Of a stretch of 64,000 nt of DNA, positions 52,210-64,000 are shown piece by piece. The DNA is taken from assembly GCA_017412645.1 (NCBI GenBank), contig JAFPWX010000001.1:1-64000 (forward strand), in the 5' to 3' direction. The notes under the pieces were generated by a model. It had not been told where the DNA came from. It saw only the letters and a list, made by a program, of their open reading frames with translations, and did no database searches. Origin of the DNA: Bacteroidales bacterium. Lineage in GTDB: Bacteria > Bacteroidota > Bacteroidia > Bacteroidales > UBA932. Both the position numbers and the translations under genes were made by a program. How positions within the stretch are numbered: the stretch's first letter is position 1; every line of letters starts with the position of its first letter.

Positions 52210-52241
52210 TTTGGATAATTAAATCGTTTTAGCTAAATTTG
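52210..52241 (+). promoter_or_regulatory. Promoter of the kinase-isomerase-lacI operon with LacI-type operator O1
   Basis: TTTG (52210-52213), exactly 20 bases, TAAATTTG (52234-52241). The spacer holds a 16-base operator-like site, ATTAAATCGTTTTAGC (52218-52233), that fits GCTNAANCGNTTNAGC at 10 of 12 fixed positions and abuts the -7 element. Binding there should block RNA polymerase. Confidence 0.62.
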
Positions 52242-52264
52242 CGAAAGGGTAAAGTGCGCAAAAC

Positions 52265-53230
52265 ATGAATAATCAACCAAGAATACTTGTTGTAGGGAGC
52301 TTCATGATGGATCTTGTGGCTCTCGCAGAAAGAGCTCCCGAACTGGGAGAAACTGTTGTTGGATCCGGTTTCAGAACCGCACCCGGCGGAAAGGGTGCCA
52401 ACCAGGCCGTCCAGGCTGCCCGTCTTGGAGTCGAAACCCATATGGCAGGCTGCGTCGGAGACGACTCTTTCGGCCGGGAAATGGTCAAAGCTCTCAAAGA
52501 TTCGGGGGTGGACACATCCCATGTCAAGATCAGCGGGGAGCATCCATCCGGGGTCGGGCACATTGAAATCCAGTCCGGCGCTTCCGGTGTCCAGAACAGA
52601 ATAATCGTGGTCCCTGGAGCAAACTACGATCTTGCACCCGCGGATCTCGTATGGCTCAAAGAAGGCATCAAGGCATACAATATCGTAATAATGCAGCTCG
52701 AGCTCAAGATGGAAACCATTGAGTATGTAGCACGAGTGGCGCACGACGCCGGAGTGCCGGTTATGCTCAATCCTGCTCCTGCCGCCCCTCTGTCCGACGA
52801 ACTCCTGTCCTGCGTCACCTTCCTGTCTCCCAACGAAACCGAGGCTGCAATGCTTTCCGGAGTCAAAACAGATTCCGAAGGTCGCCTTTCAGAAGAGGCT
52901 CTCAAAGCCGCCAGCAAGGTTCTCATGAGTAAGGGCGTTCCCAATGTAATTATTACCCTTGGTGACAAGGGTGCGGCAATTTGCACCGCTGAAGGGGTTA
53001 AACACGTGCCATGCGTTAAGATGACAAATGTCGTGGATCCCACTGCGGCAGGCGATTCCTTTGTAGGTGCTTTCTGCGCAGGCTACGCTTCGGGCCTTTC
53101 AATCGAAGATTCGCTGAATCTGGCCGTTCATGCTTCCGCCATAACGGTATGCGGCTACGGCGCCATTCCCTCGCTCCCCACAAAGGATAAAGTTGAGAAA
53201 CTCATGGTTGAAAGGAGGGCTGCAATATGA
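52265..53230 (+). CDS. Ribokinase-family (PfkB) sugar kinase, candidate D-arabinose kinase
   Basis: A 321-residue PfkB-family kinase. ILVVGSFMMDLV at the start, FRTAPGGKGANQAVQAARLG (sugar binding), LSPNETEAAMLSG, and VVDPTAAGDSFVGAF with the catalytic base D264 are the ribokinase signatures. ATP phosphorylates the terminal hydroxyl of a pentose in the cytoplasm. The next gene overlaps its stop by 4 bases and encodes an arabinose-5-phosphate-isomerase-like protein, so D-arabinose is a better guess than D-ribose. Ribose or ribulose kinase activity remains possible. Confidence 0.84.
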   Translation: MNNQPRILVVGSFMMDLVALAERAPELGETVVGSGFRTAPGGKGANQAVQAARLGVETHMAGCVGDDSFGREMVKALKDSGVDTSHVKISGEHPSGVGHIEIQSGASGVQNRIIVVPGANYDLAPADLVWLKEGIKAYNIVIMQLELKMETIEYVARVAHDAGVPVMLNPAPAAPLSDELLSCVTFLSPNETEAAMLSGVKTDSEGRLSEEALKAASKVLMSKGVPNVIITLGDKGAAICTAEGVKHVPCVKMTNVVDPTAAGDSFVGAFCAGYASGLSIEDSLNLAVHASAITVCGYGAIPSLPTKDKVEKLMVERRAAI

Positions 53231-53835
53231 TACAGGAAAAGAGTATAAAGGCCGTCGAGTATTTCCTTGATTCGGCAAAGAAGAGTTTCACCTCTTATAT
53301 AAATAGTATTGATATCGCATCCTGCAGCAAGGCGGCGGAGCTGATCCTTGCCTCGCAGGCTGCTGGTGGAAGGCTTCATGTTACGGGCATAGGCAAGCCG
53401 GGGCATGTAGCCACCTATGCGGCATCGCTCCTGTCGTCTACAGGAAATCCGGCGACTTTCCTTCACGGAACGGAGGCGGTTCACGGGTCCTGCGGCCAGT
53501 TGGTAGCCGGAGACGTTGTAATCGCCATATCCAATTCCGGAGAAACTGCGGAACTGAAGGCAACAGTGAATGCGATTCACATGAACGGCTGCAAGGTGAT
53601 TGCCGTAACCGGTAATCCGGAAAGCTGGCTTTCCAGGAACTCCGAATGCACCCTTCTTGCCGGCGTGAGTGAAGAGGGAGGTCCGCTGAACCGGGCTCCC
53701 CGCAACTCGGTAAATGCCGAAATGCTTATCCTCCAGGCCCTCAGTGTGATGCTACAGGTAGAGAAAGACTGGAATCCCGAGAAATACGTCAGGTGCCATC
53801 CGGGAGGTAAGCTTGGAGAAAGAGGTTTGGCCTAG
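53227..53835 (+). CDS. SIS-domain D-arabinose-5-phosphate isomerase-like protein without CBS domains
   Basis: A 202-residue sugar isomerase of the KdsD/GutQ/KpsF group. HVTGIGKPGHVA, FLHGTEAVHG, ISNSGETAEL, GPLNRAP and CHPGGKLGERG match that group in order. The residues reported for E. coli KdsD (K59, H88, E111, E152, H193, from memory) correspond to K57, H86, E109, E150 and H191, all at a constant offset of two. It should interconvert D-arabinose 5-phosphate and D-ribulose 5-phosphate. It lacks the CBS pair of the Kdo-pathway enzymes, and its coupling to a sugar kinase argues for a catabolic role. Confidence 0.82.
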   Translation: MIQEKSIKAVEYFLDSAKKSFTSYINSIDIASCSKAAELILASQAAGGRLHVTGIGKPGHVATYAASLLSSTGNPATFLHGTEAVHGSCGQLVAGDVVIAISNSGETAELKATVNAIHMNGCKVIAVTGNPESWLSRNSECTLLAGVSEEGGPLNRAPRNSVNAEMLILQALSVMLQVEKDWNPEKYVRCHPGGKLGERGLA

Positions 53836-53850
53836 TTACAATAACGGTTG

Positions 53851-54876
53851 ATGGACAAGAATAAGAAAAAAGCTTCGCTGAAGGATGTCGCCTCCTACGT
53901 AGGGGTTTCCACATCGCTGGTCTCCTTTGTGCTCAATGGCAAGGGAAGGCTTCATCGCGTAAGTGAGGAAACAATCGCCAAGATCAAGAAAGCGGCCGAA
54001 AAACTCAACTACCAGCCCAATTCTTTCGCGAAGAGTCTCAGGGAAGGAAAGAGCCGCGTGATTGGAGTTGTCCTGTCCGATATCTCCAACCCGTTCTTCT
54101 CCATGATTGCACGCTATCTGGAAGATGAGGCGGAGAAGTATGGGTATTCAATTCTGTTCGCGAGTTCCGACGAAAACCGTGACCGCGCGGAAAAACAGAT
54201 AGCGCATCTCGTAAGCAGGGGAGCCGACGGCATCATTTTAGTGCCTTGTGAAAAGTCCGAAAAAACTGTGGAGGCGGTTCTGGAAACCGGGAAGCCCCTT
54301 ATCCTGATAGACCGTTATTTCCCGACCATCCGCACCAACTATGTCTGCCTGAACAACAGGGAAGTAAGTCGTCTTGCCACAGAGCATCTCCTGACTCATG
54401 GTTTCAGCCATCCCGGCGTCATCGCATACGATACCACCCTGCAGCATATGCAGGACAGGGTCAACGGTTATAAGCAGGCCATGACAGAAGCTGGAAAAGC
54501 CGGTCTTATAAGCGAAAGCCGCGTCAAGGAAGCCAATCTTCACAACGCTATAAGCGGATCCATCTCCAGAATGCTCGCCGAAGGTGTGGATTCTCTCCTT
54601 TTTGCAACCAATAACATCGCCACCGAGGCGCTCAAGGTAATTAAGGGCAAAGGCATACGGATTCCCGAAGATCTGGGAATCATAGGATTCGACGGAGGCA
54701 ATGCTTTCGAACTGTTCCATGTCCCTGTCTCTTATATCCGTCAGCCCATCTCTCTGCTTGCCCAAAAGGCAGTGGAAATCATCATGGACGAAATTCTGAT
54801 GGGGGAGAAAATGACCCATCAGGTAGAAGTCCAGGGGTCTCTCGTTATCACAGAATCATCGATTAAGTCCTGTTAG
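53851..54876 (+). CDS. LacI family transcriptional regulator, probable regulator of the D-arabinan locus
   Basis: A 341-residue regulator. The N-terminal helix-turn-helix and hinge read ASLKDVASYVGVSTSLVSFV and LNYQPNSFAKSLR. The periplasmic-binding-protein-like sensor begins VIGVVLSDISNPFFSMIARY and includes DGIILVPCEKSE and IPEDLGIIGFDGG. It lies between the kinase-isomerase pair and the enzyme operon. Four GCTNAANCGNTTNAGC-like palindromes on the three nearby promoters are its likely sites. The effector is probably a released sugar or sugar phosphate. LacI-type control is less usual for PULs than hybrid two-component or SusR regulators. Confidence 0.9.
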   Translation: MDKNKKKASLKDVASYVGVSTSLVSFVLNGKGRLHRVSEETIAKIKKAAEKLNYQPNSFAKSLREGKSRVIGVVLSDISNPFFSMIARYLEDEAEKYGYSILFASSDENRDRAEKQIAHLVSRGADGIILVPCEKSEKTVEAVLETGKPLILIDRYFPTIRTNYVCLNNREVSRLATEHLLTHGFSHPGVIAYDTTLQHMQDRVNGYKQAMTEAGKAGLISESRVKEANLHNAISGSISRMLAEGVDSLLFATNNIATEALKVIKGKGIRIPEDLGIIGFDGGNAFELFHVPVSYIRQPISLLAQKAVEIIMDEILMGEKMTHQVEVQGSLVITESSIKSC

Positions 54877-54908
54877 AAGACGGTCGATAATATTTTTCAA
54901 ATCAATTA

Positions 54909-54940
54909 TTTGCAAATGCTAAATTAATTTAGCACCTTTG
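54909..54940 (+). promoter_or_regulatory. Promoter of the GH172-GH183 operon with operator O4
   Basis: TTTG (54909-54912), 20 bases, CACCTTTG (54933-54940). The spacer contains an exact 18-base palindrome, TGCTAAATTAATTTAGCA (54917-54934), with the same outer half-sites (GCTAAA/TTTAGC) and the same position as O1. Confidence 0.65.
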
Positions 54941-54967
54941 TTCCCAAGAGAATAAAATTATCCGCAT

Positions 54968-56128
54968 ATGAAAAAAAGACTCCTCCTTTCCGCAGCAGCC
55001 ATGCTTATGGCGCTTACCGTTAGCTATGCCCAGAATTTCAATGGATTAGACATGAATCTGGGTAATCTCTCCAGGCTTTCAGATGCCAAAACCCGTTCCA
55101 TCTCCCCGGAAAACTTCACCGGCGAAAAGGGCAAGGGCGGAATGGCCGAGCCGAATCTTCCCAATACGAGGAATGTAAACAACGCCTCGTGGGCTGCCAG
55201 GGATCTTGGAAAAACCTGGAAGGTGAATCCCTTTATCACCATCAATCCCGGTGAAACCATCACCATAGCGGAGATGGAAGGCCCCGGCGCTATCCAGCAT
55301 ATCTGGATGACTCCCACAGGAGTGTGGCGTTGGACCATAATCCGCATCTACTGGGACGATGAATCCACCCCGTCAGTCGAATGTCCTATCGCAGACTTTT
55401 TCTGCATGGGCTGGAACGAATATGCCCCGCTCGTATCGCTTCCCGTCTGCGTTAACCCCGGAAGCGCATTCAACTGCTACTGGCAGATGCCTTTCCGCAA
55501 GAAATGCAAGATCACGATGGAGAACGTGAACGACAGAGACGCCATGAATCTGTACTACCAGATCGATTACACCCTCACCGAGGTCCCGGAAGACGCGGCA
55601 TATTTCCACGCCCAGTTCCGCCGTACTCCCTATAACGAGAGTTCCGATTTCACCCTGATCGACGGTATCAAGGGCAAGGGCCACTATGTGGGAGTATATA
55701 TCGCCCTTGGAGTTCACAACAATGGCTGGTGGGGTGAAGGCGAAATCAAGTTCTTCATCGACGGCGACAAGGACTATCCCACCATTTGCGGCACCGGCAC
55801 CGAAGATTATTTCTGTGGTTCCTACAATTTCGACCGTGGCGGTCGCTTCACCGAGTACTGCACTCCATACGCCGGTCTCTGCCAGGTGATCAGGCCCGAC
55901 GGAACCTATCGTTCCCAGGAACGTTTTGGTATGTACCGCTGGCATATAATGGATCCCATCCGCTTCGAGAAGAACCTCAAGGTCACCCTTCAGGATCTTG
56001 GATGGAGGCACGATGGGCGTTATCTTGAGCAGCATTCGGATATTGCCGCCACTGTGTTCTGGTATCAGGCCGAGCCTCATGCCAAATTCCCCAAGTTCCC
56101 CACCTGGCGTGAACTCGAAGTCAACTAG
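54968..56128 (+). CDS. GH172 (DUF2961) enzyme, probable exo-D-arabinofuranosidase
   Basis: A 386-residue protein with a signal peptide (MKKRLLLSAAAMLMALTVSYA-Q), hence probably periplasmic. DUF2961/GH172 features: WKVNPFITINPGETITIAEM, GPGAIQHIWMTP, IRIYWDDESTPSVECPIADF, YYQIDYTLTEVPEDAAYFHA, and GTGTEDYFCGSYNF with E279 as a candidate catalytic residue (E296 downstream is another). Known members act on alpha-D-arabinofuranosides of mycobacterial D-arabinan or on alpha-D-fructofuranosides. The DUF4185 genes in the same operon favour D-arabinan. It heads a four-gene operon with gaps of 2, -4 and -1 bases. Confidence 0.85.
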   Translation: MKKRLLLSAAAMLMALTVSYAQNFNGLDMNLGNLSRLSDAKTRSISPENFTGEKGKGGMAEPNLPNTRNVNNASWAARDLGKTWKVNPFITINPGETITIAEMEGPGAIQHIWMTPTGVWRWTIIRIYWDDESTPSVECPIADFFCMGWNEYAPLVSLPVCVNPGSAFNCYWQMPFRKKCKITMENVNDRDAMNLYYQIDYTLTEVPEDAAYFHAQFRRTPYNESSDFTLIDGIKGKGHYVGVYIALGVHNNGWWGEGEIKFFIDGDKDYPTICGTGTEDYFCGSYNFDRGGRFTEYCTPYAGLCQVIRPDGTYRSQERFGMYRWHIMDPIRFEKNLKVTLQDLGWRHDGRYLEQHSDIAATVFWYQAEPHAKFPKFPTWRELEVN

Positions 56129-56130
56129 TC

Positions 56131-57201
56131 ATGAAAAGGCTTTTACTGGCACTCCTGTGCCTCACTTTGTTTGGCACTGTGGCATCCGCCCAGTTCGTCA
56201 TTGATGGGCAGCGTCTTCAGCCGCCCGTCGAGGACGACATCTGGGTGCGTCCTGCCGCCGATGTGCCTTCAATGGCAGTCTGGGGCTTTAAGGACGGTAT
56301 CCGGGTCGGGATTAACCCTCCCGGCCGCCCGAGAGGCCTACTGTACATGCTTTGCCCATACCTTAAGGAATCCGCCGACCGCTGGTTCGACATTGTGAAC
56401 TATGTGGCGATGGAGCCGGTAGATGCCATCACGCATCGTCGGGGGCTTTCGGAACTGGAGCATAGCGCTCTAGATGGAGTGCCGGGAAAGCGTTTTGTGA
56501 GCAGCGATACTCCCCAGAAGCCGTCTGTCTACGACAATCTTCATCCGGCCCGCGGCGTAGTGGCCGTTGAGGACGGAAAGAAAACCCTTACGGTGTGGGT
56601 GTTCTGCGAGAAGTTCGAAAATGGGGCAGACGTGTACGTTCGCCTTCGTTTCATAGAGGGAAAACCCTATGAGTTCGAGCTTCAGTCTTTCGCCACCGAG
56701 GAATCGGCTCCGCTGGATCAGTTCGTTTTGTCGGCCACAATGGGCAACAAGATGCGTCTCAGGGAGCTCTATGCCGCCAACGGAGTAAAGAAGCTGTCTA
56801 CCGACATCTGGCCGGATTACAAGGAAAAGTGGTTCAGCCCGTATGACATCACTCCTCTGAAGGAAATGATACGCGACCGCAAGGGTGGAGCCTGGGTGCT
56901 TGCTCATCCTAACGAAACAGACTACTCCAACGTGGAGTTCGAAGAGGGTACCTCCAAGGGGTGGAAGTACAACGGTATCCCGGCCACCCAGTATTGGTAT
57001 TCACCCCTCCCGCACCCCGAAATGGTTGTACATGTGAACGGACGCTATACATACTGGGCTATCTTCAAGAAGATTCCAGGCGGCATAGCCTACGAGAATT
57101 TCGAGCTTTTCGAGCCGTTCCGCCAGGGTGCCGTGTACTACTTCGGCATCGACCCTGCAAAACCGAAAGACATTATTAAACGGATAAATAAGATCAAATG
57201 A
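56131..57201 (+). CDS. Uncharacterised secreted protein of the D-arabinan operon
   Basis: A 356-residue protein with a signal peptide (MKRLLLALLCLTLFGTVASA-Q), so probably periplasmic. I do not recognise the family. The mature part looks beta-rich with many aromatic and acidic residues (DIWVRPAADVPSMAVWGFKD, GINPPGRPRGLLYMLCPYL, FNY-like WFDIVNYVAMEPVD, EDGKKTLTVWVFCEKFENGA, TQYWYSPLPHPEMVVHVNG), as in a carbohydrate-active or binding protein. It starts 2 bases after the GH172 stop and overlaps the first GH183 gene by 4 bases, so it is made with them. It may be a new enzyme of arabinan breakdown or a binding protein. No catalytic residues can be claimed. Confidence 0.72.
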   Translation: MKRLLLALLCLTLFGTVASAQFVIDGQRLQPPVEDDIWVRPAADVPSMAVWGFKDGIRVGINPPGRPRGLLYMLCPYLKESADRWFDIVNYVAMEPVDAITHRRGLSELEHSALDGVPGKRFVSSDTPQKPSVYDNLHPARGVVAVEDGKKTLTVWVFCEKFENGADVYVRLRFIEGKPYEFELQSFATEESAPLDQFVLSATMGNKMRLRELYAANGVKKLSTDIWPDYKEKWFSPYDITPLKEMIRDRKGGAWVLAHPNETDYSNVEFEEGTSKGWKYNGIPATQYWYSPLPHPEMVVHVNGRYTYWAIFKKIPGGIAYENFELFEPFRQGAVYYFGIDPAKPKDIIKRINKIK

Positions 57202-58643
57202 AGCTATTAAAGCTATTATTCCCTCTTGCCTTTGCCGTACTTGTAGCATGGGCCTGCTCAAAGGAACCGGATGGGCCTGAAACCCCGCCCGAGGATCTTC
57301 TGATAGAGCCGGTGTCGCAGACTGTGAAGCCTGCCGACGGTAAACTCACAATCAGTATGACCCTCTATGGCCTGGAGCAGACCAAGTATATGACCATCGA
57401 AAAGATCAACTCCGCGGGAACCCAGAGCGTGAATTATTATCCGCGGGTGCTTCAGAAGGATTACACGTACAACTATACCATGCTCCCGACCGACGATGAG
57501 GAATTCACATTCTCTTTTACCCTTGTGGGCAACGATGGGTCCGTGAGCAATACGGCAACAGCCACTGTGGACAATTCCAGGGCTGATGGGGAAGCCAAAT
57601 ACAGAACCCTTGCAATCTCTAATCTGAGGGTTATGTCCAGGGTTACCGGCAAGGAAGACAACGGTCACGACGGTCTTCCGGCGGTAAAGTACACGGTAAA
57701 TAACAACACGCACACCAAGTACAATGTGGGTGGAACCGATTTGGGTATCGTCTGGGAGATTTCCCCGGGTTACTATGGCCTTTTCTTCGGCGATACATTC
57801 GGTTCCGATTTCAATCCCAACTTTAGCGCTCCGGGGCCTAATGGTGGCTCGTGGAGGAGTAATGTACTGCTGTTTTCAGAAGATACAGAGCTGGAAGACG
57901 GAATGAAGATTACCGGTGCTGCTCTAGATGCTGGGGGCAATGCCCGGCAGATAGTGTACAGTGCTCATGTCACCAATGGCAATGGAGACTATACCTCCAT
58001 TCCCACAGCTGCGGTTCATGCCAACGGGAAAGAATACGTGCATTACTTCAATATCAGAACCTGGGACGGTTGGGTTACCAACTATTCCGGGATGTACCGT
58101 TCTTCGGATATGGGCGGCAACTGGGAAAAGGTTTCCGGAATCAGATGGGGAGGGGAGAGTTACTTTGGTCAGGTTGGCTTCTGTAACATAGGCGACGGAT
58201 GGGTGTATGTGATAGGCACTCAGTCCGGACGAGATTCAAAACCGAAATTGGCGAGAGTTGCCGAAGCGAACATAGAGAAGCAATCCAAATATGAATTCTG
58301 GAACGGAGTTTCCTGGGTGGAAGGCAGTGAGTACGAGGCGGTGATTCTCTTTGATGATAAAGCTGGCGAACTGTCTTTCGAGTATCTGCCCGAATTCAAA
58401 AAATGGGTAATTCTCTACTTCAACGGCCCCCGTTACGAAATCACTATGCGCTATGCCGACAAGGTAACCGGCCCGTGGAGCGACCCAATTACAGTCGCTT
58501 CAGGAAGGAATTATCCTCAGTTATACGGTTCCTTCATTCATCCACTTTCCAAGCAGGAGGGAGGTAAACTGTACTTTATAATGTCAATGTGGTTGCCCTA
58601 CAACACATATCTTATGTGTGTAGATGTTAAAGGATACAGATAA
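57198..58643 (+). CDS. DUF4185 (GH183) surface lipoprotein, probable endo-D-arabinanase A
   Basis: A 481-residue lipoprotein (MKLLKLLFPLAFAVLVAWAC, then KEPDGPETPPED, an acidic surface-export stretch). Residues 30-130 are an Ig-like domain. The catalytic region starts at about 140 with MSRVTGKEDNGHDGLPAVKY, then VGGTDLGI (D181), FFGDTFGSDF (D199), WRSNVLLFSEDTEL, and ends with MRYADKVTGPWSDP. This is the DUF4185 five-bladed-propeller pattern. Founding GH183 enzymes cut alpha-1,5 D-arabinan internally. It overlaps the next gene by 1 base (TAATG). Confidence 0.8.
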   Translation: MKLLKLLFPLAFAVLVAWACSKEPDGPETPPEDLLIEPVSQTVKPADGKLTISMTLYGLEQTKYMTIEKINSAGTQSVNYYPRVLQKDYTYNYTMLPTDDEEFTFSFTLVGNDGSVSNTATATVDNSRADGEAKYRTLAISNLRVMSRVTGKEDNGHDGLPAVKYTVNNNTHTKYNVGGTDLGIVWEISPGYYGLFFGDTFGSDFNPNFSAPGPNGGSWRSNVLLFSEDTELEDGMKITGAALDAGGNARQIVYSAHVTNGNGDYTSIPTAAVHANGKEYVHYFNIRTWDGWVTNYSGMYRSSDMGGNWEKVSGIRWGGESYFGQVGFCNIGDGWVYVIGTQSGRDSKPKLARVAEANIEKQSKYEFWNGVSWVEGSEYEAVILFDDKAGELSFEYLPEFKKWVILYFNGPRYEITMRYADKVTGPWSDPITVASGRNYPQLYGSFIHPLSKQEGGKLYFIMSMWLPYNTYLMCVDVKGYR

Positions 58644-60064
58644 TGAAACTTTTCTTACCTGTACTGATATCCATGATGGCGATTGCCTGTTCTGCTACTC
58701 CTACCCAGGAAGAGCAGAACGAAAATCCATTTCTTAAAGTTTCCGTTTCACAGACAAACGCGCTGCCGGACGAACAGGGTCTGGTGAGTGCAGACATCAC
58801 TTTAGAAGGGCTGCTCAGAGCAACATCTTTCAATATCGTGAAGAAAACTAATGAAGGAGAGACTTTGAAAAAATACGGAAAAGCAATCCTCAAGGAAAAA
58901 TTCGCTTTCCAGTATGCGGTCGCTTCCACGGATCCTGCCAGAATTGAATTCGAATTCTACTTGCAGGCATCCGACGGCTCCCGTTCTAATGTAGAGAAAC
59001 TGATCGTGGATAATTCCGCAGGGTTTAAATCGTCACCGTTAACCTTCAGCGGTTTCGAAGTGATGAATCGGATCACAGGTAAGGAAGACAATGGTCATGA
59101 CGGTCTTCCCAAAGTGAAATATCTCCTGTACAACAACACTGATACGCGTTTCGATGTGGGCGGAACCGACCTGGGAATCACCTGGGAAATTGCGCCCGGC
59201 AAGTACGGGATGTTTTTTGGCGATACCTTCGGCAAGGATTTCACACCCAATCTTACAAATCCTTCCCCTGGGGGGTCCAACTGGCGCGGCAACGTGTTGC
59301 TGTTCAGCGAAGATACCGATCTCTCTAACGGCCTTTCAATAACTGGTGCTGCAATGGACTATTATGGCAGGGCCAGGGAGATATGCTATAGCGCTCATAT
59401 CACCGACGGAAATAATGACTATACTTCCATCCCCACAGGAGCAGTTCACGCAGCCGGAAAGGAATACGTTCACTATATGAACATCAAAACTTGGTACGGC
59501 TGGGTGTCTAATTTCTCCAGTTACTTCACTTCGGCGGATGGGGGAGAAACATGGAACCGGGTCAGGAGCATCTCCTTCGCGTCCCGCAGCAATTTCGGTC
59601 AAGTTGGGATGTTTAATAAAGACGGTTACGTGTACATTGTCGGAACTGTGACCGGTCGTTCATCCCAGCCGCGTCTGGCAAGGGTCGCAGAAGAAAACAT
59701 GGAAGTACAGACCGAATATGAGTTCTGGAACGGCTACGGCTGGGTCAAGGATGCAGAAGAGGGTGCCGCTCCACTTTTCGACGATTTTAGCGGCGAACTC
59801 TCGTTCGCATGGTTCCCACAGCACCGCAAATGGGTGCTGCTATATCTTAACGAACAGCGTAACGACCAAATCACCATGCGTTACGCCGACAACATCATTG
59901 GCCCGTGGAGTGCCCCGCAGGTGCTCACCGATGGGACCTCATTCTGGCGTCCATACGGCAGTTTCATCCACCCGCTATCCCTTAAAGGCGGAGATGACAT
60001 CTACTTCGTAATGTCCGCCTGGAATGCGTACAATACCTATCTTATTCACGGAAAATTGAAGTAG
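58643..60064 (+). CDS. DUF4185 (GH183) surface lipoprotein, probable endo-D-arabinanase B
   Basis: A 473-residue lipoprotein (MKLFLPVLISMMAIAC, then an acidic TQEEQNEN stretch). It has the same two-part plan as its neighbour: N-terminal Ig-like domain, then MNRITGKEDNGHDGLPKVKY, VGGTDLGI (D176), FFGDTFGKDF (D194), WRGNVLLFSEDTDL and MRYADNIIGPWSAP. The two proteins are tandem paralogues that agree closely in the catalytic core and differ more in the Ig-like domain, suggesting different linkages or branch tolerance. Operator O2 begins at the last base of its stop codon. Confidence 0.8.
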   Translation: MKLFLPVLISMMAIACSATPTQEEQNENPFLKVSVSQTNALPDEQGLVSADITLEGLLRATSFNIVKKTNEGETLKKYGKAILKEKFAFQYAVASTDPARIEFEFYLQASDGSRSNVEKLIVDNSAGFKSSPLTFSGFEVMNRITGKEDNGHDGLPKVKYLLYNNTDTRFDVGGTDLGITWEIAPGKYGMFFGDTFGKDFTPNLTNPSPGGSNWRGNVLLFSEDTDLSNGLSITGAAMDYYGRAREICYSAHITDGNNDYTSIPTGAVHAAGKEYVHYMNIKTWYGWVSNFSSYFTSADGGETWNRVRSISFASRSNFGQVGMFNKDGYVYIVGTVTGRSSQPRLARVAEENMEVQTEYEFWNGYGWVKDAEEGAAPLFDDFSGELSFAWFPQHRKWVLLYLNEQRNDQITMRYADNIIGPWSAPQVLTDGTSFWRPYGSFIHPLSLKGGDDIYFVMSAWNAYNTYLIHGKLK

Positions 60065-60128
60065 TTAAATTGTTTTAGCTATTTTACAAAATAAATCTTA
60101 TCTTTGCCATTAGCTAAAACGATTCAGC
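60064..60128 (+). promoter_or_regulatory. susC promoter flanked by operators O2 and O3
   Basis: A -7 element TATCTTTG lies at 60099-60106, with a weak TTTA-like -33 at 60074-60077. O2 (GTTAAATTGTTTTAGC, 60064-60079) covers the -33; O3 (GCTAAAACGATTCAGC, 60113-60128) covers the start of transcription. O3 is the most symmetric copy with the central CG typical of LacI-family sites. Two sites about 49 bases apart could allow cooperative repression. Confidence 0.62.
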
Positions 60129-60163
60129 GTTGAATTTATTAATCAATTCTAAATTCTAATCAT

Positions 60164-63100
60164 ATGTCATTCAGAACCAGATTGTTCCTGCTAGTATTGA
60201 TACTGGTTCTCCCAGTAGGGCTTTCGGCGCAGAGCCGTAAGTCCCTCACCGTTTCCGGCGTCGTGAAGGAAGCGGGTACCGGTGAACCCATCGTCGCGGC
60301 AGGCGTCATGCAGAAGGCAACCAATATCGGTGCAATCACCGATTTAGACGGTTCCTACCTCATCAAGGTGAACGACGCAAACGGAGTCCTCGTGGTGTCC
60401 GCCATCGGATACAAAAGCATAGAGGTTCCCATTAACGGTCGTTCCACTATCGACTTTGTGCTGGAATCCGATTCCGAATCTCTTGAAGATGCAGTGGTGA
60501 TTGGTTACGGTACTCAGAAGAAAGCTACGGTTACCGGAGCTCTCACTGTCGTCAACACGGAACTCGTGGGCAAGGCTGTAACACCCACTCTTGCCAATGC
60601 ATTGGGCGGTACTGTTCCCGGTATCATCTCTCGTCAGCGTTCCGGTGAACCGGGTTACGATGGAGCAACTCTGCTCATCCGCGGAGCGGGAACCTGGCTC
60701 AACTCCAATCCCCTCGTGTTGGTAGATGGTATCGAACGCGACATCAACCTTATCAATAACGACGAAATCGAGTCCTTCTCCATCCTCAAGGATGCTTCCG
60801 CCACCGCAGTTTATGGTATGCGAGGCGCTAACGGCGTTATCCTCATTAACACGAAGAAGGGTAGCCTTGGCAAGCCCAAGGTAACGTTCCGTTCGGAAAC
60901 TTCACTGCTTCACGGTCTCCGTTTCCCCAACTACATCGAGGGCTGGGAATTCGCAACGCTTATGAACGAGGCCTGCGAAACCGGAGGCGTGGTTTTGCCA
61001 TGGTCCGACGAAGAAATTGAAACCTTCAGGGACGGTTCCGATCCGTACAATTATCCCAGTGTGAACTGGACTGATCTTGTGCTTAAAAAGAACGCCTTCC
61101 AGACCATCAACACTATATCCGTGAGCGGCGGTAATGAAATTGTCCGTTACTACGTAAGCGCCGGATTCTCTTCCCAGAGCGGTCTGTTCAAGGAGGACCC
61201 AACCTACGATTATCGTACAAATTCCCTGTCCCAGAGGTATAATTTTCGCTCTAATGTAGACGTGAATGTCACCAAGAACTTCACTCTTAATCTCGGTTTG
61301 GCGGAAATTGTAGAGAATCGCACATATCCCGGCACTCCCGCAGCCGATATCTTCTGGTCCCTCAAGGTTGTGAATCCTATCACCTATCCGGTGAGGAACC
61401 CCGATGGCTCTTTCGGTTCGTCCAACACCTCCTACGAAAAGAACAGCCCCTATGTGCTGGCCACTAACAACGGTTTCTCAAAGCAGTTCCGTTCCACCAC
61501 TCAGGGCACCTTCGGCGCCAAGTGGGATCTCGGTACAGTGATCACCCCGGGGCTGATGATTGAGGGTAATTTCGCATACGATCACTACTACAGCATGGAG
61601 GCTACCCGCCGTAAACAGCCTGAACTCAAGAAATATCTCGGCCCCGATCCCGTTACCGGTGAGGACCGTTATACCACGATTCAGGATGAAGGAACTATGG
61701 GATACTTCATCGCGTATAACGTGTCCAATCGTGCGTACTACGGAGATGTCCGTATCAATTACAACCGTTCCTTCGAGAGTCACAACGTTTCCGCCCTCTT
61801 AATGGCGAATCTGCGCGACTATTCTGACCTCACTGCCGGTAACACTACTGCCCAGCTGCCGTATCGCCGTCAGGGCTTTGCCGGTCGTGTTTCTTATAAC
61901 TACAAGCAGCGTTATCTGATTGAACTCAACGCCGGTTACAACGGTTCCGAAAACTTCGCTCCCGGCCATCGTTACGGTTTCTTCCCTGCGGTGTCCGCGG
62001 GTTGGGTTCCTTCCGAAGAACCATGGTGGGGAATAGGATTCATCAACCACCTGAAGTTGAGAGGCTCCTACGGTACTGTGGGTAACGATGCACTTAACGC
62101 TCAGCGTTTCTTCTACATGTCCACGGTGAATAAGACTGCCGGCGGTTATAATTTCGCTTTCGACCAGTCGGGCGGCGGAAATGTCGGAGGAATGTCGGAG
62201 CTCCGTATGGGTTCGCCCAATGCATCGTGGGAAATATCTCATAAAACGGATATCGGTATCGATATGGAAATGTTCGACCGTAAACTTCGCATTGGTGCCG
62301 ACTGGTTCTATGAACACCGTACAAATATCCTCCTCGAGAGACATTCGGTGCCCAGTACAATTGGTCTGGCAGCGGGTCAGCTTGCGCTGTCCAACATCGG
62401 TATTATGGACAATACCGGATTCGACGCTAACATCGAATTCACCAATACCACATCCAGCGGATTCTATTATCAAATTCGCGGAAACATGACATACGCTCAC
62501 AATACCGTTATCGAAGACGATTCGGCTCCAGCTCTTTGGAGTTATCAGAACACTCGCGGCAAGTCGTATGGAATTCCGCTCGGTTATGTAGCTCTTGGAC
62601 TGTTCCAGTCTCAGGAAGAGATAGATTCCAGTCCCAAGCAGGAACTTGGAACCTACACCGTAGGTGACATCAAGTACAAGGATATCAATCATGACAATGT
62701 GATCAACGCCTATGACCGCGTGTATCTCGGCTACGCCCGTGAGCCTGAAATCATGTTTGGTTTTGGTTTCACCACTGCATGGAGGGGAGTGGACTTCTCG
62801 GTGAACTTCACCGGTGCCGCTAATACCACCATACTCCTCGATGCCGCCGGTATGTGGCCGTTCCAGTTGGACTATCCTGGCTACAACGTTTATCGGGAAT
62901 ACTACGACCACCGCTTTATTCCCGGAGCGGACAACACCAATGCCAAGTATCCGGTAGTTCATAACGGTACTTCCAGCAACAACTACCAGATCAGCAGTCT
63001 CTACCTTCACGATGCGTCCTACATCAAACTCAAAACAGCTGAACTTGGTTACACGATTCCAAAGCGCGCATCCGCGAAAATTGGTCTCGAAAGGTTGCGT

Positions 63101-63235
63101 TTCTTCGTGAACGGCAACAATCTGCTTTGCCTCGACAACCTTAACGGAATGGTAGATCCGGAATCCAACCACCTTGGAGCCAGTACCTATCCGACCCAGA
63201 TGGCAATTACGCTTGGTGTAGATGTGGGATTCTAA
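60164..63235 (+). CDS. SusC/RagA-type TonB-dependent outer-membrane transporter
   Basis: A 1023-residue protein. Signal peptide (about residues 1-23, ending GLSA-Q), CarboxypepD_reg-like domain (SLTVSGVVKEAGTGEPIVAA, AITDLDGSYLIKV), a SusC TonB-linked signature (EDAVVIGYGTQKKATVTGAL), plug (TPTLANALGGTVPGIISRQR, NPLVLVDGIERDINLINNDE, SILKDASATAVYGMRGANGV) and a C-terminal barrel ending in VGF. It imports the oligosaccharides produced by the surface enzymes, here probably D-arabino-oligosaccharides. The SusD partner follows 19 bases after the stop. Confidence 0.95.
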   Translation: MSFRTRLFLLVLILVLPVGLSAQSRKSLTVSGVVKEAGTGEPIVAAGVMQKATNIGAITDLDGSYLIKVNDANGVLVVSAIGYKSIEVPINGRSTIDFVLESDSESLEDAVVIGYGTQKKATVTGALTVVNTELVGKAVTPTLANALGGTVPGIISRQRSGEPGYDGATLLIRGAGTWLNSNPLVLVDGIERDINLINNDEIESFSILKDASATAVYGMRGANGVILINTKKGSLGKPKVTFRSETSLLHGLRFPNYIEGWEFATLMNEACETGGVVLPWSDEEIETFRDGSDPYNYPSVNWTDLVLKKNAFQTINTISVSGGNEIVRYYVSAGFSSQSGLFKEDPTYDYRTNSLSQRYNFRSNVDVNVTKNFTLNLGLAEIVENRTYPGTPAADIFWSLKVVNPITYPVRNPDGSFGSSNTSYEKNSPYVLATNNGFSKQFRSTTQGTFGAKWDLGTVITPGLMIEGNFAYDHYYSMEATRRKQPELKKYLGPDPVTGEDRYTTIQDEGTMGYFIAYNVSNRAYYGDVRINYNRSFESHNVSALLMANLRDYSDLTAGNTTAQLPYRRQGFAGRVSYNYKQRYLIELNAGYNGSENFAPGHRYGFFPAVSAGWVPSEEPWWGIGFINHLKLRGSYGTVGNDALNAQRFFYMSTVNKTAGGYNFAFDQSGGGNVGGMSELRMGSPNASWEISHKTDIGIDMEMFDRKLRIGADWFYEHRTNILLERHSVPSTIGLAAGQLALSNIGIMDNTGFDANIEFTNTTSSGFYYQIRGNMTYAHNTVIEDDSAPALWSYQNTRGKSYGIPLGYVALGLFQSQEEIDSSPKQELGTYTVGDIKYKDINHDNVINAYDRVYLGYAREPEIMFGFGFTTAWRGVDFSVNFTGAANTTILLDAAGMWPFQLDYPGYNVYREYYDHRFIPGADNTNAKYPVVHNGTSSNNYQISSLYLHDASYIKLKTAELGYTIPKRASAKIGLERLRFFVNGNNLLCLDNLNGMVDPESNHLGASTYPTQMAITLGVDVGF

Positions 63236-63240
63236 AGAAC

Positions 63241-63246
63241 AGGAGG
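63241..63246 (+). promoter_or_regulatory. Strong ribosome binding site of susD
   Basis: AGGAGG lies 8 bases before the ATG at 63255. Such sites are rare elsewhere in the window, apart from rpsU, and may set the SusD to SusC ratio. Confidence 0.5.
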
Positions 63247-63254
63247 AAACAAGT

Positions 63255-64000
63255 ATGAAAAAAATATTATACATAGTATTCGCAGCACTGGTGCTTGCAT
63301 CGGCAGTTTCCTGTGAAAAGTTCCTGAATATGGCTCCGGACGAAAACCTTACTCTGGACGACGTGTTCAAGAACCGCCTCAATACCAGGGCGTTCCTGGC
63401 AAACGCATACTCCTATATGCCATACCACGCAGATCAGAACTGGGACAACAACTTTACCGGTTCCTGCGATGAAGAGGAGATTGCATATGGCGCCCACTAC
63501 ACTCACGCCATGTCTAGTGGTGCATGGGCTCCGACCGACGGTAGTGTGTCTCCTATCTGGACATCCATGTACGAAGGCATACGTAAAGTCAACCTTGTGA
63601 TAGAGAATGCGGATCGCTGCTCCGACGCTACGGCTGATGAAATCCGCTGGTGGAAGGGAGAAGCCTATTTCCTGCGTGCCTTCTATCATTTCCTGATATT
63701 CCGCGCTTATGGTCCCATTCCTATAGTGGACCACGTGGTGGACATTAACGAAGACATCGCCTCTATAGTGCGTGCTACCGCTGACGAGGTGGCGGCATTC
63801 ATAGCTGCCGACTGCGATCGTGCAGCTGAATATCTCGTGGACAAAGACGAATGGCCTTCGCTCGACTATGCCCGTGCCACTCCGGTAGCAGCGCTTGCAC
63901 TCAAGAGCAGAGTGCTCCTGTACGTGGCTTCGCCTCTTTACAACGGCAATCCGGTCTTCGCGGATCTCAAAGACCCGATCAGCGGCAAGAACCTTATTTC
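63255..64000 (+). CDS. SusD/RagB family glycan-binding lipoprotein, 3' end outside window
   Basis: The first 248 residues are visible. The lipoprotein signal MKKILYIVFAALVLASAVSC is followed by EKFLNMAPDENLTLDDVFKN, the SusD_RagB N-terminal pattern. ISPIW-type (GSVSPIWTSMYEGIRKVNLV) and WWKGEAYFLRAFYHFLIFRA helices then form the TPR-like scaffold. SusD forms the lid over the SusC barrel and binds the glycan at the cell surface. Confidence 0.94.
   Translation, partial: MKKILYIVFAALVLASAVSCEKFLNMAPDENLTLDDVFKNRLNTRAFLANAYSYMPYHADQNWDNNFTGSCDEEEIAYGAHYTHAMSSGAWAPTDGSVSPIWTSMYEGIRKVNLVIENADRCSDATADEIRWWKGEAYFLRAFYHFLIFRAYGPIPIVDHVVDINEDIASIVRATADEVAAFIAADCDRAAEYLVDKDEWPSLDYARATPVAALALKSRVLLYVASPLYNGNPVFADLKDPISGKNLI

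Follow-up and report, generated by a model that had tools for sequence, protein, structure and literature searches.

D-arabinan is an unusual polysaccharide found in the cell walls of mycobacteria, and loci in which glycoside hydrolases of families GH172 and GH183 act together on it are already known. In Bacteroidota, PUL42 of Dysgonomonas gadei (Al-Jourani et al. 2023, PMC10115798) holds both families in a single polysaccharide utilization locus (PUL), with exo- and endo-acting D-arabinan enzymes shown there. A gene cluster of Microbacterium arabinogalactanolyticum (Shimokawa et al. 2023, PMC10509167) contains GH183, GH172, and GH116 enzymes. Here, we analyze a locus of this kind in a Bacteroidales genome (G000; 1.80 Mb, 26 contigs, 96.4% complete). 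It lies in bases 1-64000 of contig C13 (98,159 bases), a stretch of 64,000 bases hereafter called the window, and continues beyond its right edge. Like PUL42, the locus pairs GH172 with GH183; like the Microbacterium cluster, the genome also has GH116, and ExoMA1 and ExoMA2 are the best matches of its GH172 and GH116. We consider it probable, on good grounds, that this is a D-arabinan locus in which a predicted kinase-first route for D-arabinose replaces FucI and ribulokinase.

In the literature covered, phosphorylative routes for D-arabinose start with an isomerase, and oxidative, non-phosphorylative routes also exist (PMC6336799). The route through FucI and AraB ends at D-ribulose-5-phosphate (PMC6452873), as does the route proposed here, and its enzyme types are found in several loci related to ours (L043 with L079, L044, L045, and L047). 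Table 1 of the same paper gives rbsK as predicted for D-arabinose in E. coli, but genes of the fuc and ara systems were the ones that the evolved strains used. Among open-licence papers, we found no D-arabinan locus with a route made of a ribokinase-like kinase and a D-arabinose-5-phosphate (A5P) isomerase.

A kinase-isomerase pair takes the place of FucI and ribulokinase

We show from gene content and slot replacement that a ribokinase-like and KpsF-like pair takes the place of the FucI and AraB-type ribulokinase of sister loci. The genes form one run on the + strand from position 52265 (window positions, unless the contig is named):

52265-53230, + strand: PfkB ribokinase-like kinase, proposed D-arabinose 5-kinase (Pfam PF00294, 238 bits; TIGR02152, 310.8 bits, cut-off 299.65)
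53227-53835, + strand: lone-SIS KpsF/GutQ-like isomerase, proposed D-arabinose-5-phosphate isomerase (TIGR00393, 130.3 bits)
53848-54876, + strand: LacI-family regulator (RbsR model NF047341, 206 bits, under the cut-off of 382)
54968-56128, + strand: GH172 (DUF2961) of ExoMA1 type, signal peptide by eye (323.8 bits, cut-off 27)
56131-57201, + strand: U356, secreted 356-aa protein (open reading frame; no family match)
57198-58643, + strand: GH183 (DUF4185) lipoprotein no. 1, lipobox by eye (294 bits, cut-off 39.5)
58643-60064, + strand: GH183 (DUF4185) lipoprotein no. 2, lipobox by eye (280 bits, cut-off 39.5)
60164-63235, + strand: SusC-type TonB-dependent transporter (TIGR04056, 928 bits)
63222-65102, + strand: SusD-type lipoprotein (contig call; the window edge cuts it at 64000)
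contig 65092-66315, after SusD: DUF6786 protein
contig 66324-67766: FucP-type permease (FucP model, 420.6 bits, cut-off 280.4)
contig 67804-70104 (L003:7804-10104), after FucP: third DUF4185 protein

From kinase to SusD the gene spacings are -4, 12, 91, 2, -4, -1, 99, and -14 bp, and all adjacent genes as far as the third DUF4185 gene overlap or lie less than 100 bp apart. Of 395 Bacteroidota genomes, 23 (counting this one) have DUF4185, which exceeds the cut-off in 19 of the 23. Because DUF4185 is rare, the genes overlap or nearly touch, and a near-identical set recurs in four metagenome-assembled genomes (MAGs), the grouping is not due to chance.

Scanning the named genomes of bacteria and archaea with both GH183 proteins yielded 11 loci, of which L039-L047 were read and L048 and L049 left out. 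Since the loci read were collected via GH183, they give no independent proof that the kinase-isomerase pair follows GH183. The four MAGs with the near-identical set (L039-L042) share 70-90% protein identity with the window; there is a single GH183 in L041, and only L042 shows the LacI gene. A second group, namely L043 (with its upstream part L079, from Bacteroides oleiciplenus), L044, L045, and L047, carries FucI, DUF6786, FucP, and an AraB-type FGGY kinase. These sister-locus FucI proteins score 1032-1061 bits on TIGR01089 (cut-off 850), and the FGGY kinases score 683-698 bits on the ribulokinase model PRK04123 (cut-off 428). In B. oleiciplenus, a LacI-type protein 48% identical to that of the window adjoins FucI.

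Gene order makes the replacement explicit. L044, L045, and L047 read SusC-SusD-FucI-DUF6786-FucP-FGGY-GH183. L039-L041 read SusC-SusD-RbsK-API-DUF6786 (API, A5P isomerase), with FucP next in L039 and L040, while the L041 contig ends there. Thus, the pair occupies the slot of FucI, between SusD and DUF6786, in L039-L041. The kinase gene adjoins the isomerase gene in all six genomes with the pair. No tblastn match above 60 bits to FGGY ribulokinase or FucI was obtained in the stretches read of five pair genomes. FucI (TIGR01089) is present in all four genomes whose GH183 locus contains it, and also in the L046 genome. The first-pass annotation of this DNA had proposed a cytoplasmic pentose kinase and isomerase; both are there, but as a ribokinase-like and KpsF-like pair, not as the FucI and ribulokinase of sister loci.

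The kinase is a distinct ribokinase paralogue with Gly98

The genome encodes a second, higher-scoring ribokinase (C11:24053-24937, 362.6 bits on TIGR02152), so the locus kinase is an extra paralogue. Pair-kinase relatives fall slightly under the cut-off that the window kinase passes (297.2 bits in L042, 296.3 in L078, and 287.7 in L039). We aligned the six pair kinases with 33 other family members, leaving out the below-cut-off G352 and G376 loci. Identity between the window kinase and the 29 ordinary ribokinases of Bacteroidota in this alignment is 33-44%, and the pair kinases form one clade (support 100/100, branch 1.8; five of the six are in the tree).

The ribose-contact residues of ribokinase, Ala98 and Asn14 in E. 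coli numbering, are both replaced in the window kinase: position 98, in a gapless stretch of the alignment, is Gly instead of Ala, and position 14 is Met instead of Asn. Gly98 is found in 6/6 pair kinases (window, L039-L042, and L078). Ala98 and Asn14 are found in 29/29 over-cut-off Bacteroidota ribokinases, among them the second ribokinase of the same genome; the four remaining family members, all below the cut-off, have Ala, Ala, Thr, and Gly at position 98. In E. coli ribokinase, the A98G substitution raised kcat on D-arabinose 15-fold and lowered KM 1.5-fold, with lower activity on ribose (PMC9604405). Human ribokinase has been used to produce D-arabinose-5-phosphate from D-arabinose and ATP (PMC11591822). 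At the level of a single residue, Gly98 predicts that D-arabinose is preferred, but it does not prove this. Plain ribose salvage by the locus kinase was considered and rejected, as the genome has the separate ordinary ribokinase on C11.

The isomerase is an atypical member of the KpsF/GutQ family

The isomerase gene starts within the last 4 bp of the kinase gene. Its product matches KpsF/GutQ best (130 bits, against 37 for 6-phospho-3-hexuloisomerase), although the 130.3 bits on TIGR00393 lie under the cut-off of 203.7 and only positions 1-153 of the 268-position KpsF model are matched. In the PDB, phosphosugar isomerases and A5P isomerases match it best. The GK, HG, EE, and HPGG motifs, around the Lys, His, Glu, and His that we take to be the catalytic positions of APIs in the SIS domain, are kept in all six pair isomerases, which form one clade (100/100).

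Among the 393 genomes of the order, 323 match the isomerase at E 1e-20. The best match after its own is 40% identical, in a 333-aa frame of full-length KpsF size; a close match was found in this genome only, and the two same-genus genomes sampled gave none at E 1e-20.

KpsF/GutQ proteins usually supply A5P for 3-deoxy-D-manno-octulosonate (KDO), and the isomerase might do the same here, its place in the locus being accidental. The KpsF SIS domain occurs once per genome, as the locus copy, in G000 and in the genomes of L039-L042, so that the locus isomerase is the only KpsF found that could fill such a role. However, KdsA did not exceed the cut-off in any of nine genomes (G000 and those of L039-L042 and L044-L047); in the ten searched it was found once, in B. 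oleiciplenus. In this genome and the four close MAGs, the search gave nothing beyond fragments that score about 35 bits at most; the frames in which they lie are 360-377 aa long, and our guess is that these represent the related DAHP synthase. The overlap with the kinase gene, and the kinase as neighbor in 6/6 genomes, also speak against an accidental position. Since neither KdsA nor a second KpsF was found in this genome, the isomerase is unlikely to serve KDO, and we rejected this role as highly improbable. The KdsA result in nine of ten GH183-bearing Bacteroidales genomes suggests a lineage without KDO made by the standard route.

Other functions for the pair

Several observations weigh against a role of the pair in D-arabinose use. 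Three of them (the outside relatives of the isomerase, the L046 genome, and the distant genomes without FucI) would fit an alternative in which the locus does serve D-arabinan, but the pair has some other job (such as ribose salvage and a ribulose-5-phosphate side reaction) and D-arabinose is isomerized by an enzyme encoded elsewhere. The nearest outside relatives of the isomerase found (46-58% identity) are lone-SIS proteins of Firmicutes, in phosphotransferase system (PTS) operons with no annotated PfkB kinase. The pair isomerases have RNSVN or RNSIN together with HGSCG, against variants of TSSTT and HGDLG in 30 other KpsF-type proteins, and the HGS part of this altered loop motif is common to the Firmicutes lone-SIS proteins. 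The equilibrium of known APIs favors A5P (PMC11591822), and the KpsF-like isomerase of the D-ribulose operon of C. rodentium is dispensable for growth (PMC12307932). For the kinase, Met14 is not diagnostic, as human ribokinase has Met there too, and L118 (267 bits, below cut-off) has Gly98 but no other locus-gene match in 14 kb.

The distribution of genes also provides counterevidence. L046 has no pair in its 14.3 kb, and its genome carries FucI on another contig and the pair on a third, outside the GH183 locus. FucI (TIGR01089) was found in 0/5 of the whole genomes whose GH183 locus contains the pair (G000 and those of L039-L042); in G000, no search was aimed at further aldose isomerases or at FGGY kinases outside the stretches read. 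Lack of FucI is not peculiar to these genomes: nine of 10 more distant GH183-bearing Bacteroidota genomes have none, so other means of using D-arabinose may exist. The pair was established in none of these distant genomes. Because the kinases and the isomerases form one clade each, Gly98 and the slot swap perhaps go back to a single event.

Against another job for the pair stand the separate ribokinase with Ala98, the position of the pair in the FucI slot of three loci, the failure to find FucI in any of the five genomes whose locus holds the pair, and Gly98 as a D-arabinose-favoring residue. We keep our confidence despite the distant genomes without FucI, because slot replacement and Gly98 do not depend on them. 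Another job for the pair appears unlikely, and a role in D-arabinose use is the reading we prefer, with the substrate of the isomerase as its weakest link.

The Firmicutes operons are plasmid-borne (L128:5337-9227, L129, and L130). They combine PTS genes (with an ascorbate-type IIC in L128 and L130) with the lone-SIS protein, and they also encode a DapA-type enzyme and an aldolase of KHG/KDPG type.

D-arabinan is the predicted substrate

The locus almost certainly serves D-arabinan use, judging from the enzymes it encodes. The best PDB match of the GH172 protein is ExoMA1 (8ic8), an exo-alpha-D-arabinofuranosidase, at 384 bits, against 162 for the fructan-type alphaFFase1 and 135 for 8ah3. We equated 8ah3 (DG02479) with DgGH172c via its locus number. 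E233 and E254, the catalytic glutamates of DgGH172c (PMC10115798), correspond to Glu257 and Glu279 of the window protein, as counted by hand on the PDB alignment. The protein thus has the marks of the D-arabinofuranosidase type: a DUF2961 domain over cut-off, the Glu pair, and greater proximity to ExoMA1 than to alphaFFase1.

Both GH183 lipoproteins have the marks of endo-D-arabinanases, with DUF4185 over cut-off and the four catalytic residues of EndoMA1. In the first, which matched EndoMA1 at 190 bits in a PDB search made with this protein only, D181, D199, R345, and E391 correspond to EndoMA1 D33, D51, R198, and E243 (hand-counted on the alignment). The second is 52% identical to the first and keeps the same four residues. 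A SusC/SusD pair adjoins GH183 and GH172, as in a Bacteroidota D-arabinan PUL, and a permease of the FucP family begins 1.2 kb past the end of SusD.

A GH116 enzyme is encoded elsewhere in the genome. A second locus, on contig C19, comprises SusC, SusD, GH116, a GH32/43-like protein, DUF4185, and a CotH-like protein, with the GH116 and DUF4185 genes one gene apart. The GH116 protein has both of its domains (PF04685, 186.7 bits; PF12215, 138.3 bits) and matches the exo-beta-D-arabinofuranosidase ExoMA2 at 369 bits, the next GH116 in the PDB reaching 35. GH116 is present in all 10 genomes that were searched, namely this genome and the genomes of L039-L047. Here it lies on C19, and the contig of the window has none. 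In the L042 genome, a single locus unites kinase, isomerase, LacI, GH172, U356, two GH183, SusC, SusD, DUF6786, FucP, DUF4185, GH116, and GH97.

The founding member of GH172 is a difructose dianhydride enzyme (PMC8605356), and the kinase superfamily includes fructokinases. The locus might therefore target an alpha-D-fructofuranoside, that is, a fructan or difructose anhydride, through a GH172 of alphaFFase1 type. The GH172 scores given above contradict this, as do GH183 and GH116 partners of D-arabinan type and the kinase, with 310.8 bits on the ribokinase model against 79.7 on the fructokinase model PRK09434. Fructose is not known to need an isomerase of A5P type. We rejected a fructan substrate on the GH172, GH183, GH116, and kinase scores, and consider it scarcely credible.

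The first-pass annotation had described a compact PUL dedicated to D-arabinan, with GH172, two GH183, SusC/SusD, a kinase, and an isomerase. All of these genes are confirmed close to where it placed them, in one tight + strand run, and two more belong to it: the LacI-type regulator (53848-54876) and U356 (56131-57201). The proposed substrate is supported by a GH172 that groups with ExoMA1 and not with the fructan enzyme and by the catalytic residues kept in both GH183 proteins, and the family assignments hold in profile searches (DUF2961, 323.8 bits, cut-off 27; DUF4185, 294 and 280 bits, cut-off 39.5). Of the functions it had suggested looking for further right, the permease (FucP family) was found there; GH116 is off this contig, on C19.

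A proposed kinase-first route

Family membership and conserved catalytic residues suggest the following pathway. The GH183 lipoproteins would cut D-arabinan at the cell surface, and SusC/SusD would import the fragments. In the periplasm, GH172, together with GH116 from the second locus for beta-linked ends, would release D-arabinose, which a FucP-type permease would carry into the cytoplasm. The specialized ribokinase paralogue is predicted to phosphorylate D-arabinose at O5, giving D-arabinose-5-phosphate. The lone-SIS isomerase might then convert this to D-ribulose-5-phosphate, provided that the flux runs in this direction, for entry into the pentose phosphate pathway. An A5P isomerase has been run from A5P to ribulose-5-phosphate in a synthetic E. 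coli pathway (PMC9947464). The kinase-first pair would reach the same end product, D-ribulose-5-phosphate, as FucI and AraB in sister loci. Taken alone, this kinase-first route is also probable, at a level similar to that of the locus and route together.

U356 and neighboring genes

U356 lies directly 3' of GH172 in the window and in L039-L042. It occurs in 1/395 genomes of the phylum, namely this one. A relative 52% identical is encoded in B. oleiciplenus (L079:15780-16865), near GH172 with an FGGY fragment between them. For U356, Pfam and NCBIfam gave no match at E 0.001, and Pfam and PDB searches relaxed to E 10 brought up nothing meaningful. We regard it as a candidate for a new family with a tie to D-arabinan, perhaps of enzymes or of binding proteins. 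A role for U356 as the missing exo-beta-enzyme was considered and dropped, as it has no family match and the GH116 found on C19 makes such a role unnecessary.

The third DUF4185 protein (contig 67804-70104) and the one on C19 have Gly at the position of EndoMA1 Asp33 and may not be endo-D-arabinanases. DUF4185 proteins of this type (L003:7804-10104; L124:12409-14652), about 750 aa long and with Gly where EndoMA1 has its nucleophile, perhaps have a binding role or a different activity. PDB searches gave no match for the third DUF4185 protein up to E 0.1, and no usable match for DUF6786.

Beyond the third DUF4185 gene, the contig continues with CotH-like, GH97, DUF4886, GH2, and GH38 genes, several of which have counterparts in other loci. 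CotH-kinase-like proteins follow DUF4185 genes in several loci (L003:10331-12016; L124:10511-12412; L044:13691-15307). GH97 is recurrent in D-arabinan loci, at 47-79% identity to that of the window's contig (L003:12036-13982; L126:4650-6608; L079:460-2439; L046:11042-13030). GH38 alpha-mannosidase-like genes also recur near GH183 loci (L003:18666-20000 with L004:1-1785; L044:15304-18438); a tie to lipoarabinomannan, which bears mannose, is conceivable. Another DUF2961 protein of this genome, its second (L005:9389-11506, 705 aa), keeps the catalytic motifs and is encoded on a contig without a DUF4185 gene.

Ecological setting and significance

Of the four MAGs with the near-identical set, one is from the rumen of water buffalo, one is from goat omasum, and two are RUG (rumen) isolates. 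Apart from these sources, the named relatives in the GH183 scan include an isolate from sheep colon and the human gut species B. oleiciplenus. The loci suggest D-arabinan feeding by ruminant gut bacteria. An origin of the polymer in actinobacterial cell walls, as proposed in the first-pass annotation, is an ecological guess; mycobacteria, corynebacteria, pili, and lipopolysaccharides are all candidate sources. Other D-arabinofuranose glycans include the pili of P. aeruginosa PA7 and a small number of lipopolysaccharides (PMC10115798).

It is likely, if slightly less so than the route itself, that a natural, dedicated kinase-first pathway (D-arabinose 5-kinase and lone-SIS API) displaced FucI and ribulokinase in D-arabinan loci of ruminant-type Bacteroidales, with a kinase bearing the Gly98 of the engineers and U356 maybe as a further undescribed D-arabinan-active protein. 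The route, with its residue-level prediction (Gly98), involves two small proteins. If true, the pair would be a genetic marker for D-arabinan feeders without FucI, and would clearly exemplify the exchange of one two-step pathway for another in the same gene slot. It would also provide a natural D-arabinokinase for D-arabinose-5-phosphate production; arabinoside synthesis is limited by weak ribokinase activity on D-arabinose (PMC9604405). The analysis also points to companion proteins, namely U356, DUF6786, GH97, and the CotH-like proteins.

Comparison with known systems

In D. gadei PUL42, a predicted fucose isomerase is the most abundant carbohydrate-active enzyme on D-arabinan (PMC10115798). 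No FucI was found in the genome described here, and a fucose isomerase in the PUL is a feature of PUL42, not a rule for loci of this kind. The M. arabinogalactanolyticum cluster relies on an ABC transporter, has its exo-enzymes inside the cell, and includes an isomerase and a kinase, both putative (PMC10509167), whereas our locus has SusC/SusD and a kinase-first pair. The isomerase resembles the KpsF, GutQ, and KdsD APIs in its SIS domain and in what we take to be their catalytic Lys, His, Glu, and His positions. It differs from them in having no CBS domains, an altered loop motif, a catabolic gene context, and a genome in which KdsA was not found. The FucI and AraB route is isomerase-first (PMC6452873), in contrast to the kinase-first order proposed here. 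Finally, the Gly98 that was engineered into E. coli ribokinase as A98G (PMC9604405) occurs naturally in the window paralogue.

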